A stretch of DNA of 64,000 nucleotides, from NCBI GenBank assembly GCA_022842935.1, contig JALHOP010000019.1, positions 1 to 64,000 of the forward strand, in the 5' to 3' direction. Source of the stretch: Myxococcota bacterium (GTDB lineage: Bacteria > Myxococcota > XYA12-FULL-58-9 > JALHOP01). The position numbers were made by a program, and so were the translations under genes. A model generated the notes under the pieces. It searched no databases. It saw only the letters and a program-made list of their open reading frames with translations, and was not told where the DNA came from. Shown here one piece after another: positions 7,546-18,623 of the stretch; the stretch's first letter is position 1; each line of letters begins with the position of its first letter.

Positions 7546-9309
7546 TCAATCGCGCGCCGAGCGGCGACGTGTCCCAGCGCAGTCCTGACACGAGCGCCCG
7601 TTGCCGTGATTGTGCACCAGACGCGCTGCAACAGGCTCGCGACCACCATCGACGAAACCATACACAGCAAGAGCGCGGCGCGTGCGTGCCGTGAGATCGG
7701 TGACGATGAGGTCGAAGTGGTGTTCTTCGCCGGTCGCGTGGTGTTGCTGTAGGCCGAAGCTGCGCGAGTTGGCGACCACCCAGCGGCGGGTACCTGTGCC
7801 ATAGTCGGGCAGGTCGACGGCACGCCCGTTCTGGTGATTCGAGTATCCGGCAGGTGCCGCCAAGCGCCCTTTGCTGCGACGCAGGCTCGCTTGCTCTCGG
7901 TGCGAGCGAAAGCCGGAGCCGGGAAGGGGAAGCGCCGGGTTCGTTAGTCGCATCGCTGTGTAAGTGAGGGCGGCGCGCGTCTCGAGGAAACGCTCGCGTG
8001 GGCGACCCGTGTCGGCGTCGGGAGATTCACCCATCGAGCGCACCACCATCGCGAAACGTTGGCCAGAGTTGTAGCCGTGCACGACGAGGCCACCACGCAG
8101 GTTCTCGGGCAAGCGTTGAATCATTGCCGCAGCTTGCGGCGAGCGAAGAGCCGCGAGGGTCTGTGCGTTGATCTGGCCGTTCGCGGGTAGGCCCGGACCC
8201 CGCACCATCCAGTTGTGCAGGCGTTGGAAGTCCGCGATCGCGGCTTCGGTCATTGGACCGAGCTTGCCGTCGGCGGGGTTGTCGACGCGGCTGCGTGGGT
8301 CAGCGCCTTGGGTGAACGTGTAGCCTAGCTCCATGAGGCGGGTCTGCACCTCACGGATGACCTCTTCGTCGCCCGGCTGCGTCGGTCCGTCAGCGCGTAT
8401 AGCGCGCTGGCCGAGGGGGTTAGCTGCGATGGCGGACTCGACGTTCTGGCGCCAGGGCTCCTGCATGGCCTCGGCGGAGCGTCGCGCGTTCCGCAACGCG
8501 TCGCCGATGCGTGGTCCGAGCGCCGCGGGGTCGCCGAGGTCGGCGCCGGTGTGGCGCTCGTAGGTCTCGCTAAACCGCCGCATGGCCTCCATGGTGCCAG
8601 CGTCAAAGTCGGGCCCTTCGCTCACGTCGTAGCCCAAGCCACGGAGGATGTCTTTGGCGCGCGTCCGGTGCTCGCGGTCGGCGTCTGTCCCACGGCCAGC
8701 TCGGAGCGTGGGGCGACCGAGCTGCTCGTCGCTCACACCTGGTTCGATGAGGGTTTCGGCGGCGCGCGCCGCGCTCGCGATTGCATCGAGCGTGCGCTGG
8801 TCGAGCTCGCCGTCCTGCGGCATCGGAGCAAACGTTCGGTCGTTGTGGGCCTGCCCCTGGAAGTCGAGCACCGCACGGTACGTGGTGTCGTCGAAGGTAC
8901 CCGGGGTCACGTTCGGTGCGGGCTTGCCCGGGCGGGCTTCGAAGAAGCCGAGGCGTCGCAGGTCGGCCTGCAGCGAAGCGATGCGCGGGCCCGCGGCGCC
9001 GATGCGGATCCCAGTGCCAGCCGGACGCGCAACCACTTCGGCGGCAACTGGCTCGGCGGCAGCGACGACAGCCATGGGGCTGAACACGGGAGCGCGGGGC
9101 TCGACCCGCGCCGGTGCGACGGGGACGACCTCGGCGCGCCTCGGGGTGTCTCGCCACTTCCAATCCCACGGTAGGATGGAGTCGTTGAAGAAGTTGGCGA
9201 GGCCACTGCGGGCTGGCTGACGCCGGGGTGTAGCGACGGGCTCGTCGGCATCGCGGACCGGCTGACCGCGCGGAGCGGCTCCAGGGGCAGTACGCAGCTC
9301 TTCACCCAT
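7546..9309 (-). CDS. Peptidoglycan-binding protein with VanY-type M15 peptidase domain
   Basis: The 587-residue protein has a Pro/Arg-rich disordered start (about 1-110), then three peptidoglycan-binding-type repeats (about 115-185, 215-260 and 325-385, each with a leucine-rich helix and a GxxDxxTxxAVxxFQ-like end), and a D-Ala-D-Ala carboxypeptidase/endopeptidase domain of family M15 (about 410-570). Zinc ligands are H492 (SNHQNGRAVDL), D499 and H531 in EEHHF; E528 is the likely base. The Trp usual before the last His is replaced by His530. It should cut cell-wall peptides. No Sec or Tat signal is visible, which is odd for a wall enzyme. The gene runs convergent to the hydrolase with only ten bases between. 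About 180 bases to the next minus-strand gene hold nothing clear. Confidence 0.85.
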   Translation of the reverse strand: MGEELRTAPGAAPRGQPVRDADEPVATPRRQPARSGLANFFNDSILPWDWKWRDTPRRAEVVPVAPARVEPRAPVFSPMAVVAAAEPVAAEVVARPAGTGIRIGAAGPRIASLQADLRRLGFFEARPGKPAPNVTPGTFDDTTYRAVLDFQGQAHNDRTFAPMPQDGELDQRTLDAIASAARAAETLIEPGVSDEQLGRPTLRAGRGTDADREHRTRAKDILRGLGYDVSEGPDFDAGTMEAMRRFSETYERHTGADLGDPAALGPRIGDALRNARRSAEAMQEPWRQNVESAIAANPLGQRAIRADGPTQPGDEEVIREVQTRLMELGYTFTQGADPRSRVDNPADGKLGPMTEAAIADFQRLHNWMVRGPGLPANGQINAQTLAALRSPQAAAMIQRLPENLRGGLVVHGYNSGQRFAMVVRSMGESPDADTGRPRERFLETRAALTYTAMRLTNPALPLPGSGFRSHREQASLRRSKGRLAAPAGYSNHQNGRAVDLPDYGTGTRRWVVANSRSFGLQQHHATGEEHHFDLIVTDLTARTRRALAVYGFVDGGREPVAARLVHNHGNGRSCQDCAGTRRRSARD

Positions 9310-12871: not shown

Positions 12872-14047
12872 ATGCCCCAGGACCTGCGCATTGACCGCAG
12901 CGATGCCGGAACGTTTTTGAGGGTGGAGGTGTCTGGCACGCTCAATGAGGCGCTCGCCCCGGAGCACCTCGCCGACCTCGGGGATGGACGTCCGATCCGC
13001 ATCGACCTCGAGAAGGTTTCGCGCATCACGTCCTTTGGAGTACGGCAGTGGGTGCGCGGCCTTGAAGCGCTGCGTCAACGGTGCGGTGGGGTCGTCCTCG
13101 AGCGCTGCTCCTACGCCTGCGTTTCGCAGCTCAATCTCATCGCCACGTTCTCTGCCGATGCGTTGGTCGCGTCGGTCATGGCGCCACTTCGGTGTGAGGC
13201 GTGCGAGCACGAAAAGCTGATCGTCGTCGATGTGACCAAGGGCCCGCCGGGTTCGCTCGAGCAGCCCTGCGCAAAGTGCGGTGCCAAGGCCGACCTCGAG
13301 GAAGACCCCGAAACGTACTTCGCTTTCGCGAAGGGCCAGCTCGCCAACGGCCGCTCCGCGCTTTTCCAGAAGCTTCAGGCCGAGCAGAGCAACGACGGAC
13401 AAGCCTCAGTCCATGTGGACGGCGATACCAAGGCCAAGCAGGACGCGGCAGCCCTTGCTCAGCACGATGCCGAGGCTCGCGCAAAGGTGGAGGCGGACGC
13501 TAGGGCCAAGCAGGACGCGGCAGCCCTTGCTCAGCGCGATGCCGAGGCTCGCGCAAAGGTGGAGGCGGACGCCAAGGAGATGCAGGACGCCGCAGCCCGT
13601 GCTCAGCGCGATGCCGAGGCTCGCGAGAAGGTCGAGGCGGAGGCCAAAGCCAAGCGGGAAGCGGACGCCGAAGCGAGTGCCAAGCGTGATGAGGAGAAGA
13701 AGGCCAAGGCAGCGTCCGAAACCCAACAGAAGACGCAAGGCGGTGGGCTCGCGATTCCCCCACCCCCGCCCGCGGATGGTGGCTTCGATCAGTTCGAGGC
13801 GACGACCGTCCACTTCATCGAGGACGTCGCGGAGTACATGGCGCTGCCCGAGGCGCCGGCTAACGTCGAGGTAGTGGCAAGCTCCGAGACGGGCGTCGCA
13901 GCCGAGGATACGACGGCACCACGCCCCATCGCGGGCTGGTGGGCACCACGCGAAGGGGAGGGGTGGTGGAGTCGGCGCACCATCGCAATTGCCGTGGCGT
14001 CGTTCGTGCTCGGGATCCTCGTTGGCTTCTTGGTTGCTCGCCTTTAG
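12872..14047 (+). CDS. Membrane-anchored STAS, zinc-ribbon and coiled-coil protein
   Basis: The 391-residue protein starts with a STAS (anti-sigma-antagonist) domain, about 1-105. The helix-start motif reads ITSFGV, with S54 at the position of the phosphorylated Ser of SpoIIAA/RsbV-type proteins, although the usual Asp before it is Thr. Next come two Cys pairs (CEAC and CAKC, about 110-140) that form a likely zinc ribbon, three 24-residue Ala/Glu/Lys repeats inside a longer coiled coil (about 180-285), a Pro-rich linker and a single C-terminal membrane helix (about 367-388). The catalytic partner expected for a STAS domain is a RsbW-like kinase; the convergent gene 13 bases away ends in exactly such a domain. 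ATG at 12872 follows a G-rich site. Confidence 0.82.
   Translation: MPQDLRIDRSDAGTFLRVEVSGTLNEALAPEHLADLGDGRPIRIDLEKVSRITSFGVRQWVRGLEALRQRCGGVVLERCSYACVSQLNLIATFSADALVASVMAPLRCEACEHEKLIVVDVTKGPPGSLEQPCAKCGAKADLEEDPETYFAFAKGQLANGRSALFQKLQAEQSNDGQASVHVDGDTKAKQDAAALAQHDAEARAKVEADARAKQDAAALAQRDAEARAKVEADAKEMQDAAARAQRDAEAREKVEAEAKAKREADAEASAKRDEEKKAKAASETQQKTQGGGLAIPPPPPADGGFDQFEATTVHFIEDVAEYMALPEAPANVEVVASSETGVAAEDTTAPRPIAGWWAPREGEGWWSRRTIAIAVASFVLGILVGFLVARL
13430..13645 (+). repeat. Three tandem 72-bp units inside the STAS protein gene
   Basis: Units at 13430-13501, 13502-13573 and 13574-13645 are in frame and encode 24-residue coiled-coil repeats. The first two are nearly identical at the DNA level; the third has diverged. 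The near identity points to recent expansion, so copy number may vary between strains and change the length of the rod. Confidence 0.9.
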
Positions 14048-14060
14048 GCGCCCGCGACTC

Positions 14061-17000
14061 TCAGCCCGTGCGCTCGTGAATCACGAAACTTGGCGCTGAA
14101 CGCGTGAACTCGCGGCGCGACTGGGTCAGATCGCGGGCGACGATGACCTCGGTCGACCGACCCTTGGCTATGTTGAGCGCGACGAAGCTCGCCTTCTGCA
14201 ACATCATGAACATACCGACGCCCGCGCCCCCGCCACTCTCTGCGAGCTGAGGACCTCCCTCGCCAAAACTGCGCCCGATGGACTCGACGATGCGCTCGGC
14301 GGAGAGAGTTCCGTATTCGTCGCGGACTGCGAGCACCAAGGTCGTGGCATCGGCGCCGAACGTCATCGTGACCGCGCGTCGCGACCGAACATCGATCGAG
14401 CGGTCCTTGTCGCTGTTGGGGCGCACACCGTTTTCGACAGGCGCGTGATAGAGGGCGTTGGTGAAGAGCTCGTCGAAGATCTCAGCGATCTCATCGATGA
14501 TGTGCTCTCTTACTCCGGCGCTTGCGCAGAAGTCGTCGAGCAAACCGATGAACTCTGCTTTTTGCGACGACTCCGTAGTGGCGTGGACGCTGTGCCGTGC
14601 GCCATGGAGCAGGAAATCGTGGACTGTCAGCGCTCTACCAGACAACGCCTTGATCAGGGTGGGCATGATCGAGGCGCGGGGTGTCTCAGCGTTGCCGATG
14701 ACGAAGCGCGCCCCATCGACGAGCGGATTGACGGCGAGGCTCTTCCGCGACCCGGCCCACAGACGAAGGCGCGGTATGCCCGCGCGATTGGGTTCGGTAT
14801 CTGGCAGCAAGAGCTCCGCCTGTTTTGGCCAGTGCTTGCGGACGAAGGCAATCGTGCTTGTGTCCGCGATGGCGAGCTGACTCGGGAGGACCAACGACAC
14901 CTGCGTGGGCTCGACCGCAGACTCCGCTTCCACCTCTCGTCGTTTGGCGTCATCTGCGAACTCGCGTTCCCGCGCGACGATGGCCTCTTGCTGACGGGCC
15001 GCCGCCTCCTCGCGTTCGCGCAGCTCCGCGAGCATCTGGGTTCGCTTCTCGTCGAGCTCTCTGGCGACCTCTTGGCGCTTGGCCTCGAGGTCGCGCTCGC
15101 CAAGGAGCAGACGCTCGTGTTCGTCCCGCAGACGCTCCTCCTCGTTGGCAATGCGCGTCCTGCGCGCCTCGAACTGCTCGGCGAGCTCTGCTTCGCGACT
15201 CGCGAACTCGGCCTCGCGCGCCCTCTGCTCGGCCTCGAGCTTAGCGTGTGCGGCCTCGATTTCCCGACGTAGGGCCTCGCGCTCGCGCTCGTATTCCTCT
15301 TCGCGTCGGGCCTGCTCTTCGTCGAGCTTCTTGGCGGCTGCCTCGGTCTCGGCAAGACGTGCCTGCGCCTTCTCTTCGAGTCGACGGTACTCGGCGCGTC
15401 GCTCCTCTGTCTCCCTGTCGAGCTCGCTACGCTTCTCCTGCAAGACCTCTTCTTTGCTGCGTGCGTCGTCTTCGAAGTCCGCGCGCATCCGATCGAGCTC
15501 TTCGCGGAGCGAGCGCTCCCGCTGCTCGATGCTAGCTTCGCGCTCCTGCAGACGCTGCTCGCCCTCTTGAATCGTGTCGCGAAGCTCGTCGAGACGACGG
15601 TGCTCGCGCTCGAGGGCATCACGCACCTCGGCCTCACGCATCGCCATTTCGCGCTGCTTGGCCTGCGTGTCGTCGGCGAGGCGTCGTTGAGCCGTGGCGA
15701 GCTCGCCACGGACTTTGGCCTGCTCTTCGGCTAGCTCAGCCTCACGCTGTCGGAAGCCCGCGAGCAGCTCGTATTGGGCTTTTTCGAACTCGCGCTGCAG
15801 AGCCGATTCCCTGGCCTTCTGATCGGCTTGCCATGCCTTACGCTCTTCTTCGCTCGCGGCACTGCGGGCGCTGAACTCGCGTTGGAGCTCGGCGTTCTTG
15901 CGTTCGAGCTCATCGCGCAGCGCCTTGTCGCGCTCAGCGAGCTGCTGCTCGCGTGCCTTTGACTCGGTGGACTGCTGCTGTTCGTCCGCGCGGAGCTTCC
16001 GGACACGTTCTTGCAACTCGGTTTCTTGGGCGGACAGCTGGGCTTCGATGGTGGCGCGTTCGCGCTGTAGCTCGTCTTCGACTTCTTTCCGTCGCTGCGC
16101 GATGGTTCCCTCGGCGCGCGACAGCTCTTCCTGTTGGGCTTCTAGCTCGCGGCGTCGTTCTTCGATGGCACGCGCTGCCTCTTCTTCGGTGCGTCGCAGC
16201 TCGGCCTCTTTACTGGCGAGCTCGGCGTTGGCTTTGGCGTGCTGAACCTCGAGCTCTTTCTGTCCCGCCTCGAGGACACGTTTGAGCTCGGCCTCGCGTC
16301 GCTGCAGCTCCGCCTCGGCGCTTTTGCGCTCCTGCTCGATGCGTCGGGTGGCCTCTTGAGCCGCCTTACGCTTGAGCTCCATCGCCGCCTGCTTTTCCTC
16401 GTACTCTCGTTCTTGCGCCGCAGCGGCTTCGCTCAAGCGCTGCTTGTCTGCCTCGAGTTGCTGCTCTCGCGCCTTGACCTCGGCGTCGAACTGTCTGCGT
16501 TTCTCGTTTAGCTCGCGTACGGCAGCTTGTTGTTGTGTCTCGAGCTCTTTTCGACTTCTGCGTAGCTCCTTCTCGCTGTCGGCGATAGCGGCTTCTCGAG
16601 CCTCGAGCTTGTTTTGCTGCGTTGCTAGATCTTGCCTTGCTTTTGCGAGCTCAGCTTCACGCTTCTTGAACTCCTGTTCGCGTTTCTGTTGTTGCGCCTC
16701 GATGCGTTGTTGGGCCTTCTTGGCGGCTTCCCAGCGCTCGCGCGACTTCTCCGCGCGTTCCAGCTGCTCTTGCTCGAGCTTCTGCGCGCGCGCCTCGAGG
16801 GCTGCGGACGTCGCTTTGGCGGCGGCTTCCTGCTCTTCGTTGCGCTTTTCGACCTCGACCTCGCGCTCGAGGAGCCTAGCTTCCCGCTCGGCTCCAATCT
16901 GTTCGAGCTCAGCGAGCTGCGCCTTGTGCGCTGCGACCAAAGAACGGGTGCGCTCACGCTCAGCCTCGAGCTGTTTCTGCAGCTGTTCGACCTTTGCTTG

Positions 17001-18623
17001 GGCGGCGCTCGCCAATCCATCGGCCTCGACGCGCATCGCCTGGAGGGCCTCTTCGAAGTCGTTACGCTCGGTGTCTAGTCGCTTCTGGGCTGCCTTGAGG
17101 GCTTTACCGAGCTCGGCCTCGCGCTCGCCGTGCTCGGCAATCAGCTTCGCGCGCGCAGCTTCGGCGGCGGTGGCGGCCGCGCTTGCGGACTTCTTCTCGG
17201 CAACGCGTTCGTCCTCGAGGCGCTTTCGCTCTGCGATGAGCTCCTTTTCGCGCTTCTTGTTGGCTTCGAGGGACGCCGAAGCGGCGCTCATCTTTGCTGC
17301 ATGCTCGCGCTCGAGCCTTTCACGCGCCTCTTCGATCTCGTCTTCCGCTTTGCGCTGCTTGGCCTGCTGAGCGGCGACCTGCTCCTTGTGCTTGGCTTGC
17401 TCGCTCTCGAGCTTTGCACGCCCCTCGGCGACACGCTCTAGCGCGGCGTCTGCGGTCGATTGAGCCCGTCGTGCCGCGGCTTCGCGCTCCGCGAAAGTGG
17501 CTTCGGTTTCCGCTTGTTCACGCTTGAGCTTGCGGCGCTCGATTGCGAGGGCTTTCTTCTCCTCCTCGGCCGCGGCCTCTTGAGCATCGGCGAGACGCTT
17601 TATCTCCGACCGCTCGAGCTCGGCCCTCTCCTCGAGGGCCCGGTGGCTCTCCTCGAGAGCCTGCTCGCGCTCAGCGACTGCCTCTTCTGCCGCCTCGAGC
17701 TTCCGGGCGCGTTGCTCGAGCTTCTTCTTCTCGGCGTCAACGGCGGCGAGCGCTTCCCGTAAGGTCTCCTCGGCATCCTTGGCGCGTTTGACGAGCTCAC
17801 GGCGTTCGGCCTCGGCGGCCTTTTGCTGACGCTCGAGCTCCTCGGCCTGGGCGCGGGCGATTTCGTCGACGGCCCGCTTGCTCTCGATGAGGAACTTCTT
17901 CCACGGCTCGCTTCGTTCGGACAGACCCGAGCGCTCGAGGTGTTCGATCGCTTGCTCGTACAGATCGACGTCGTTTCGCGCCCGCGCTTGATCGACCAGA
18001 TGTTCCGCGATCCTCCCGTGGGCCATTGGGTGCTCGGGCTCCACCTTGAGGATGCGCTGGTAGCAGTCGACTGCCGCGGTGAGCTTTCCACGACTCACAG
18101 CGATGTCGGCGAGCTCCTCGAGAGCACGGACGTTCGTCGCTCGCACCTTCAGGTTGGCGGTGACTCGGTTCTCCAGCTCGTCGAGTACGAGCGACGCAAT
18201 CGCGGCGCGGCGCTCGACGTCGTTGGCGTCGAACTCGATCCCGTAACCTTTGTCACTTCCCCGCGTGTCGACGCGAACGATCGTGCCCCGGACCGGCAGC
18301 GGCTGCTTGCCGGTGGCTTCGATGGTCAGGTCAAGCACATCCCCTTTCTTGAAAGGATCGCTGGCTCTCAAGAAAAGGCCATGAGGGCCGAGGTCCTTCG
18401 TGAAGGCCCAACGTGGCTTGCCGCCAGCGGTGTAGTTGACGCGGCGGGTTGCGCGCAGGCGGGGATGTTGGCGCTTATCGTCCCCGGTCGCGTCGACGCG
18501 CGGCCTCCCCATGAAGGCTTGCTTGCCGGAGCCTCCACGCGGCTTCGCATCGCCACCCTCCGCAGCCGCGGGGCTCGCGCTAGACTTCGCGTTTTTCGTC
18601 GTCGGAGCGGTCGTCGTGGACAT
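14061..18623 (-). CDS. Giant PilZ / coiled-coil / RsbW-type ATPase signalling protein
   Basis: The 1520-residue protein has a disordered start, a PilZ domain (about 45-150), a TPR-like helical stretch (about 160-235), roughly 1000 residues of near-continuous Ala/Glu/Arg/Lys coiled coil (about 250-1250), a short alpha/beta segment (about 1255-1370), and a C-terminal GHKL ATPase of the anti-sigma-kinase type: DELFTNALYH (N box, near 1384-1393), RDEYG (near 1435) and GGGAGVGMFM (near 1464). The PilZ arginines R51 and R55 are present; the second motif is DLGPHG instead of the usual D/N-x-S-x-x-G, so c-di-GMP binding is uncertain. It should phosphorylate or bind a STAS partner; the convergent STAS gene is the obvious candidate. 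ATG at 18623 has an AAGGA site. No membrane helix. Confidence 0.87.
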   Translation of the reverse strand: MSTTTAPTTKNAKSSASPAAAEGGDAKPRGGSGKQAFMGRPRVDATGDDKRQHPRLRATRRVNYTAGGKPRWAFTKDLGPHGLFLRASDPFKKGDVLDLTIEATGKQPLPVRGTIVRVDTRGSDKGYGIEFDANDVERRAAIASLVLDELENRVTANLKVRATNVRALEELADIAVSRGKLTAAVDCYQRILKVEPEHPMAHGRIAEHLVDQARARNDVDLYEQAIEHLERSGLSERSEPWKKFLIESKRAVDEIARAQAEELERQQKAAEAERRELVKRAKDAEETLREALAAVDAEKKKLEQRARKLEAAEEAVAEREQALEESHRALEERAELERSEIKRLADAQEAAAEEEKKALAIERRKLKREQAETEATFAEREAAARRAQSTADAALERVAEGRAKLESEQAKHKEQVAAQQAKQRKAEDEIEEARERLEREHAAKMSAASASLEANKKREKELIAERKRLEDERVAEKKSASAAATAAEAARAKLIAEHGEREAELGKALKAAQKRLDTERNDFEEALQAMRVEADGLASAAQAKVEQLQKQLEAERERTRSLVAAHKAQLAELEQIGAEREARLLEREVEVEKRNEEQEAAAKATSAALEARAQKLEQEQLERAEKSRERWEAAKKAQQRIEAQQQKREQEFKKREAELAKARQDLATQQNKLEAREAAIADSEKELRRSRKELETQQQAAVRELNEKRRQFDAEVKAREQQLEADKQRLSEAAAAQEREYEEKQAAMELKRKAAQEATRRIEQERKSAEAELQRREAELKRVLEAGQKELEVQHAKANAELASKEAELRRTEEEAARAIEERRRELEAQQEELSRAEGTIAQRRKEVEDELQRERATIEAQLSAQETELQERVRKLRADEQQQSTESKAREQQLAERDKALRDELERKNAELQREFSARSAASEEERKAWQADQKARESALQREFEKAQYELLAGFRQREAELAEEQAKVRGELATAQRRLADDTQAKQREMAMREAEVRDALEREHRRLDELRDTIQEGEQRLQEREASIEQRERSLREELDRMRADFEDDARSKEEVLQEKRSELDRETEERRAEYRRLEEKAQARLAETEAAAKKLDEEQARREEEYEREREALRREIEAAHAKLEAEQRAREAEFASREAELAEQFEARRTRIANEEERLRDEHERLLLGERDLEAKRQEVARELDEKRTQMLAELREREEAAARQQEAIVAREREFADDAKRREVEAESAVEPTQVSLVLPSQLAIADTSTIAFVRKHWPKQAELLLPDTEPNRAGIPRLRLWAGSRKSLAVNPLVDGARFVIGNAETPRASIMPTLIKALSGRALTVHDFLLHGARHSVHATTESSQKAEFIGLLDDFCASAGVREHIIDEIAEIFDELFTNALYHAPVENGVRPNSDKDRSIDVRSRRAVTMTFGADATTLVLAVRDEYGTLSAERIVESIGRSFGEGGPQLAESGGGAGVGMFMMLQKASFVALNIAKGRSTEVIVARDLTQSRREFTRSAPSFVIHERTG

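Follow-up and report, generated by a model that had tools for sequence, protein, structure and literature searches.

Introduction

The partner-switching pairs SpoIIAA/SpoIIAB and RsbV/RsbW of Bacillus are the obvious described counterparts of two genes, P0001 and P0002, that we analysed in a 64,000-nucleotide stretch of DNA (hereafter the window; positions 1 to 64,000 of contig JALHOP010000019.1 from a Myxococcota bacterium). As in those pairs, neighbouring genes encode a STAS domain and an ATPase fold, the catalytic glutamate, asparagine, aspartate and glycine are in place, and a serine starts the helix that follows a strand. Unlike them, the STAS protein of the window bears a zinc ribbon and a membrane anchor, the ATPase is the C-terminus of a PilZ-TPR-coiled-coil protein of 1520 amino acids (aa), and no sigma factor gene lies nearby. 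We regard it as rather likely, judging from sequence comparison and modelled folds, that P0001 and P0002 form a membrane-anchored partner-switching pair responsive to cyclic diguanosine monophosphate (c-di-GMP).

Three further systems deserve comparison. SiaABCD of Pseudomonas aeruginosa likewise combines a switch kinase (SiaB, Z 11.0), a phospho-substrate (SiaC, Z 6.0) and a connection to c-di-GMP, which is there the output, SiaC activating the cyclase SiaD (PMC7647112, PMC8457831); in contrast, because PilZ sits on the kinase itself, the window implies c-di-GMP as an input. LvrC of Leptospira (9qih; PMC13269768) unites a sensor and an RsbW-like Bergerat domain in one chain and resembles REC-like-ATPase paralogues described below, but unlike P0002 it has a REC input and neither PilZ nor coiled coil, and PMC13269768 mentions no STAS partner. 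Fusions of STAS to Ser/Thr kinases have been noted in Sorangium and recall several paralogous loci that join STAS to a eukaryote-like kinase, although the portion of that source consulted (PMC2887360) mentions neither an ATPase partner nor a zinc ribbon nor a connection to PilZ. A literature search of incomplete coverage returned nothing joining PilZ to an RsbW-type kinase and no description of the kinase-STAS family to which the two proteins belong; the described partner-switching systems that it found have no zinc ribbon, no membrane anchor and no cyclic-nucleotide sensor on the kinase.

Results

P0001 and P0002 are convergent, their stops separated by 13 base pairs (bp; 14048-14060), and comprise the following features.

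12872..14047, + strand: P0001, STAS protein, putative antagonist or switch substrate, 391 aa (STAS, zinc ribbon, coiled-coil linker, C-terminal membrane anchor)
12872..13171, + strand: STAS domain, residues 1-100 (AlphaFold model; top Foldseek match RsbV)
13031..13033, + strand: codon of Ser54, predicted phospho-acceptor, in the motif ITSFGVRQW
13184..13291, + strand: zinc ribbon, residues 105-140, conserved cysteines C108xxC111 ... C133xxC136
13428..13664, + strand: 72-bp tandem repeat in the linker, 3.3 copies, encoding a 24-aa helical repeat
13973..14044, + strand: tail anchor (predicted transmembrane helix), residues 368-391, the very end of the P0001 chain
14061..18623, - strand: P0002, giant protein, 1520 aa (PilZ, TPR, coiled coil, SpoIIAB/RsbW-fold ATPase)
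18186..18479, - strand: PilZ domain, residues 49-146 (Pfam E 1.9e-14; TIGR02266 E 3.4e-10), motifs RQHPR and DLGPHG
18006..18128, - strand: TPR-like segment, residues 166-206 (TPR_1 E 0.0012, below the cut-off)
14904..17873, - strand: continuous coiled coil, residues 251-1240, from periodicity and composition
14070..14759, - strand: GHKL ATPase or switch-kinase domain, residues about 1289-1518, with E1385, N1389, D1435, G1438 and G1466/1468/1470, from fold and conservation

A sequence-only reading had already proposed this layout: its view of P0002 as PilZ, about 1000 residues of coiled coil and a GHKL ATPase is borne out by the Pfam PilZ match, the periodicity of the coil and the AlphaFold model, and its convergent P0001 with STAS, Ser54, zinc ribbon and membrane helix 13 bases away agrees with the frames, strands and gap that we find, the TPR-like segment and the 72-bp repeat having been overlooked. 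In single-sequence Pfam searches only PilZ exceeds the cut-off; the ATPase (HATPase_c_2, E 0.002) and the STAS domain (STAS_2, E 0.018) fall below it, NCBIfam being likewise weak for both, and were therefore assessed through homologues and folds.

The model of the P0002 ATPase (10-sequence alignment, pLDDT 86) superposes on SpoIIAB with Z 14.0 over 131 residues at 2.2 A, followed by RsbW (12.5), UsfX (12.5), LvrC (12.0) and SiaB (11.0), histidine kinases remaining at Z < 8. E1385 and N1389 of the N box and D1435 and G1438 of the DxxG motif are identical in 52/52 ATPases, and the GxGxG of the G-rich box is kept in 50-52 of them, so that the domain has both the fold and the catalytic residues of a switch kinase. 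In SpoIIAB/SpoIIAA the glutamate at the matching position acts as catalytic base, and the serine equivalent to Ser54 accepts the phosphate.

For the STAS domain of P0001, the model (5-sequence alignment, pLDDT 88) has RsbV as its best Foldseek match (E 9.7e-5), and structural alignment gives TM1442 (Z 9.3), a Haliangium antagonist (Z 9.1) and RsbV (Z 9.0). Ser54 stands at the N-terminus of the helix after strand 42-52, and a serine is retained at the equivalent site in 57 of 71 STAS domains, as in SpoIIAA/RsbV-type antagonists. The 14 domains that lack it are, in 12 cases, the second STAS of tandem proteins, besides the second half of a split tandem (L064) and one single domain (L097); in the tandems of L049, L052, L060, L065, L066, L079, L083, L090, L092 and L093 the first STAS keeps the serine and the second has lost it. 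The four cysteines of the zinc ribbon are invariant in the STAS-zinc-ribbon profile, and each recurs in 67-69 of the 71 homologues of the larger set. Human zinc-finger matches of this profile were dismissed as generic cysteine-pair matches.

Separate searches with the ATPase and with the STAS-zinc-ribbon gave adjacent matches in many genomes of the phylum, and the occurrence of both partners was surveyed in 195 of its genomes with two profiles, A1 (built from 13 ATPases) and A2 (built from 17 STAS-zinc-ribbons). The ATPase is found in 77 genomes, the STAS-zinc-ribbon in 76 and both in 71 (24 genera with both and 25 with each, out of 90), several of the ATPase-only genomes being fragmented drafts with partial matches. 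A STAS match lies within 5 kb of 75 of the 91 ATPase matches, at a median gap of 51 bp, and the two domains share one chain in three fusions (L080, L082 and L089), a pattern of linkage and co-occurrence expected of partner-switching pairs. The convergent order is seen only in the window and in contig C12 of a second genome, G004. Across 32 ATPase-STAS pairs, tree distances in the two families correlate with r 0.67, a value that includes a contribution of shared species history and that none of 5000 permutations reaches (maximum 0.32). In a second phylum with Bdellovibrio-like members, the ATPase occurs in 158 of 241 genomes. The two observations on which the sequence-only reading had staked itself were thus checked, and it withstood both, the ATP-binding residues being invariant in the 52 homologues and the genes being neighbours in most of the genomes that carry them. 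The full arrangement that it described is rare (2/195 genomes), but the kinase-STAS pair is widespread: P0001/P0002 is one member of a large and apparently undescribed family of myxobacteria-like and Bdellovibrio-like bacteria.

The link to c-di-GMP rests on trees and on gene content. In a FastTree phylogeny of the 52 ATPases, the window's domain pairs with its orthologue (L050), and four ATPase-PilZ fusions from genome G006 join them next (support 1.0); in the corresponding STAS phylogeny, the window's STAS domain clusters with L050, L051, L062 and L063 (support 0.89), and the five members of this PilZ-linked clade all have one membrane segment. The STAS genes of L051, L062 and L063 adjoin PilZ-TPR genes, the L062 cluster also includes REC-GGDEF (GGEEF motif) and REC-EAL genes, and in L067 a REC-EAL gene stands beside an ATPase-PilZ fusion. 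In L084 and L085 a GGDEF-PilZ-ATPase adjoins STAS, the GGDEF motif being intact in L085 and degenerate in L084; the L085 frame has 1799 aa, the first half of which overlaps the STAS gene, and the real protein is taken as about 900 aa. Because ATPase-PilZ also arose outside the window's ATPase clade (L096) and a STAS-STAS-kinase-PilZ arrangement occurs in L086, the coupling of PilZ to the switch is recurrent, which argues for a function.

The PilZ domain of P0002 is a clear profile match in which RxxxR is kept (RQHPR) and DxSxxG is altered to DLGPHG, with glycine for serine; the orthologue has RRHQR and DLSADG. The window's genome (G000, 6.3 Mb) contains 37 PilZ matches. Only two of the 195 genomes encode the full PilZ-TPR-coil-ATPase protein, namely that of the window and G004 (L050, on a contig matching JACRCV010000041), with 43-59% identity over PilZ and TPR (59% in the TPR region, residues 147-250), 41% over the coil and 46% at the C-terminus. 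The coil is free of proline before position 1239, is 56% Glu, Ala and Arg, and shows a hydrophobic periodicity of 3.58 (power 25) that is the same in both proteins. In length the two coils differ by a single 32-residue indel plus six terminal residues; coil length is thus nearly conserved, at about 147 nm if fully helical. NCBIfam matches to TolA and MSCRAMM were dismissed as low-complexity coiled-coil matches. The long reach through two coiled coils envisaged by the earlier reading is a weak point: the coil of P0001 is the product of the 72-bp repeat and, as this repeat is absent from the G004 orthologue, it is not a conserved feature, the conserved coil being that of P0002.

PilZ-TPR-coiled-coil proteins without ATPase (712-1200 aa) are encoded in four genomes of another family (f8), in which the A1 and A2 profiles have no match, and one of these distant homologues (L134) has DLGARG, likewise without the motif serine.

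L134-L138: PilZ-TPR-giant-coiled-coil family without ATPase, other genomes of the phylum; L138 ends at a contig edge

As such proteins occur in other genomes, the giant is best read as a pre-existing PilZ-TPR-coiled-coil scaffold fused to a switch kinase.

Related loci provide further components of a switch. SpoIIE phosphatase is fused to the ATPase in L077 and adjoins the pair, behind HAMP sensors, in L055, L059, L119 and L122, while in some loci two STAS-zinc-ribbons and a Ser/Thr protein kinase form one protein beside the ATPase. L119, L122 and L124-L126 are operons of ATPase and STAS, some with a SpoIIE sensor ahead; a hybrid histidine kinase-receiver comes next in L122 and L125, which suggests a histidine kinase as the target of such switches, and across related loci histidine kinases or c-di-GMP enzymes are possible outputs. 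Fusion of the ATPase to a cyclic-nucleotide-binding (cNMP-binding) domain is frequent in Bdellovibrio-like genomes, in some cases with a coiled-coil stretch, and such ATPases have no STAS neighbour; no described function was found for these fusions.

L049 6921-12635 (G000:C12, about 22.9-28.6 kb): the window's genome carries the module a second time here, as a single run of STAS-STAS-Ser/Thr kinase, REC-like-ATPase (the paralogues that LvrC resembles), STAS, PAS histidine kinase and response regulator
L111 5198-6628: cNMP-binding-ATPase fusion, Bdellovibrio-like, no adjoining STAS gene
L113 4239-6047: the same
L118 5603-7333: the same
L127 4240-5883: the same

Discussion

We propose that the C-terminal ATPase of P0002 is a switch kinase of the SpoIIAB/RsbW type which would bind STAS in P0001 and transfer phosphate to its Ser54, and that the phosphorylation state of this serine would set the next binding partner of the STAS protein or of the kinase, this third partner being probably not a sigma factor. 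The tail of P0001 would be anchored in the inner membrane and leave STAS and the zinc ribbon on the cytoplasmic side, so that binding to STAS would bring one end of the giant to the membrane while the coil could keep PilZ and TPR at a distance of up to about 150 nm. Binding of c-di-GMP to PilZ might then be relayed through the coil, changing either the assembly or the access of the kinase, in a protein that may have arisen by fusion of a scaffold to a switch kinase. The sequence-only reading had likewise suggested partner switching linked to membrane and c-di-GMP; its kinase/STAS pair and both of these links are now supported by domains, folds, residues, linkage, fusions and clades, binding of the partners, phosphorylation and c-di-GMP binding standing as predictions.

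Several points weigh against this proposal. Convergent genes do not assure co-expression, although the same order recurs in G004; the giant is seen at two loci only; GHKL residues are by themselves no proof of kinase activity; and neither gene of the window has a PP2C neighbour, the one strong SpoIIE match in the genome being on another contig. In addition, the change of DxSxxG to DLGPHG could be harmless or could leave c-di-GMP binding weak or absent. The last point invites the idea that PilZ no longer binds c-di-GMP in this genome and that another signal drives the switch via the TPR or the region ahead of the ATPase, as could be expected from the cNMP-binding domains, REC-like N-termini and Ser/Thr kinases that serve as other inputs in relatives. 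We consider this unlikely, if by no means negligible, given that RxxxR and the aspartate and glycine of the second motif are retained, that full motifs are present in the orthologue and in nearly all linked PilZ domains, and that GGDEF and EAL proteins are neighbours in relatives.

A classical sigma switch, in which the ATPase would sequester a sigma factor released by the STAS protein, PilZ and coil merely localising the complex, would suit the nearest folds (SpoIIAB, RsbW and UsfX) and the proposal that the distant REC-ATPase LvrC is an anti-sigma factor (PMC13269768). It seems improbable to us, since none of the 30 sigma-70 region-2 matches of the genome lies on the window's contig (a cognate factor encoded at a distance being possible), some 10 kb separates the paralogous operon from the closest such match, and among related loci the neighbours identified are histidine kinases, response regulators, Ser/Thr kinases, SpoIIE and GGDEF/EAL proteins; the role in sporulation that had been suggested earlier, like one through a sigma factor, thus finds no support here. 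A membrane-anchored antagonist would moreover be unusual for a sigma switch. Alternatively, no phosphorylation takes place, STAS being only a membrane receptor on which the nucleotide-bound ATPase docks and thereby tethers a cytoskeleton-like PilZ coiled-coil protein. The conserved coil of about 150 nm, the tail anchor and the existence of PilZ-TPR-coiled-coil proteins without ATPase are all consistent with such a scaffold, but the strong, domain-specific conservation of the serine and of all catalytic residues, together with the SpoIIE phosphatases linked to relatives, makes it a decidedly improbable account. We retain the c-di-GMP-responsive partner-switching pair as the preferred reading.

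At the scale of the family, we would tentatively suggest, as a possibility somewhat short of even chances, that the switch kinase is itself the direct point of action of cyclic nucleotides (through PilZ or GGDEF-PilZ, and through the cNMP-binding domain in Bdellovibrio-like genomes), that the STAS-zinc-ribbon partner is membrane-anchored and the target other than a sigma factor, and that the giant coil makes the level of c-di-GMP a cell-wide spatial signal. If true, c-di-GMP would act upstream of partner switching, opposite to its place in SiaABCD, in a family that covers a large share of the phylum searched. Both phyla include organisms with social motility, development or predation, and the family is for that reason a candidate, open to testing, for the connection between second messengers and these behaviours; a pair of two proteins is small enough for direct in vitro work.

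Elsewhere in the window, positions 7546-9309 encode a protein of 587 aa that has peptidoglycan-binding domains and resembles a carboxypeptidase at its C-terminus.

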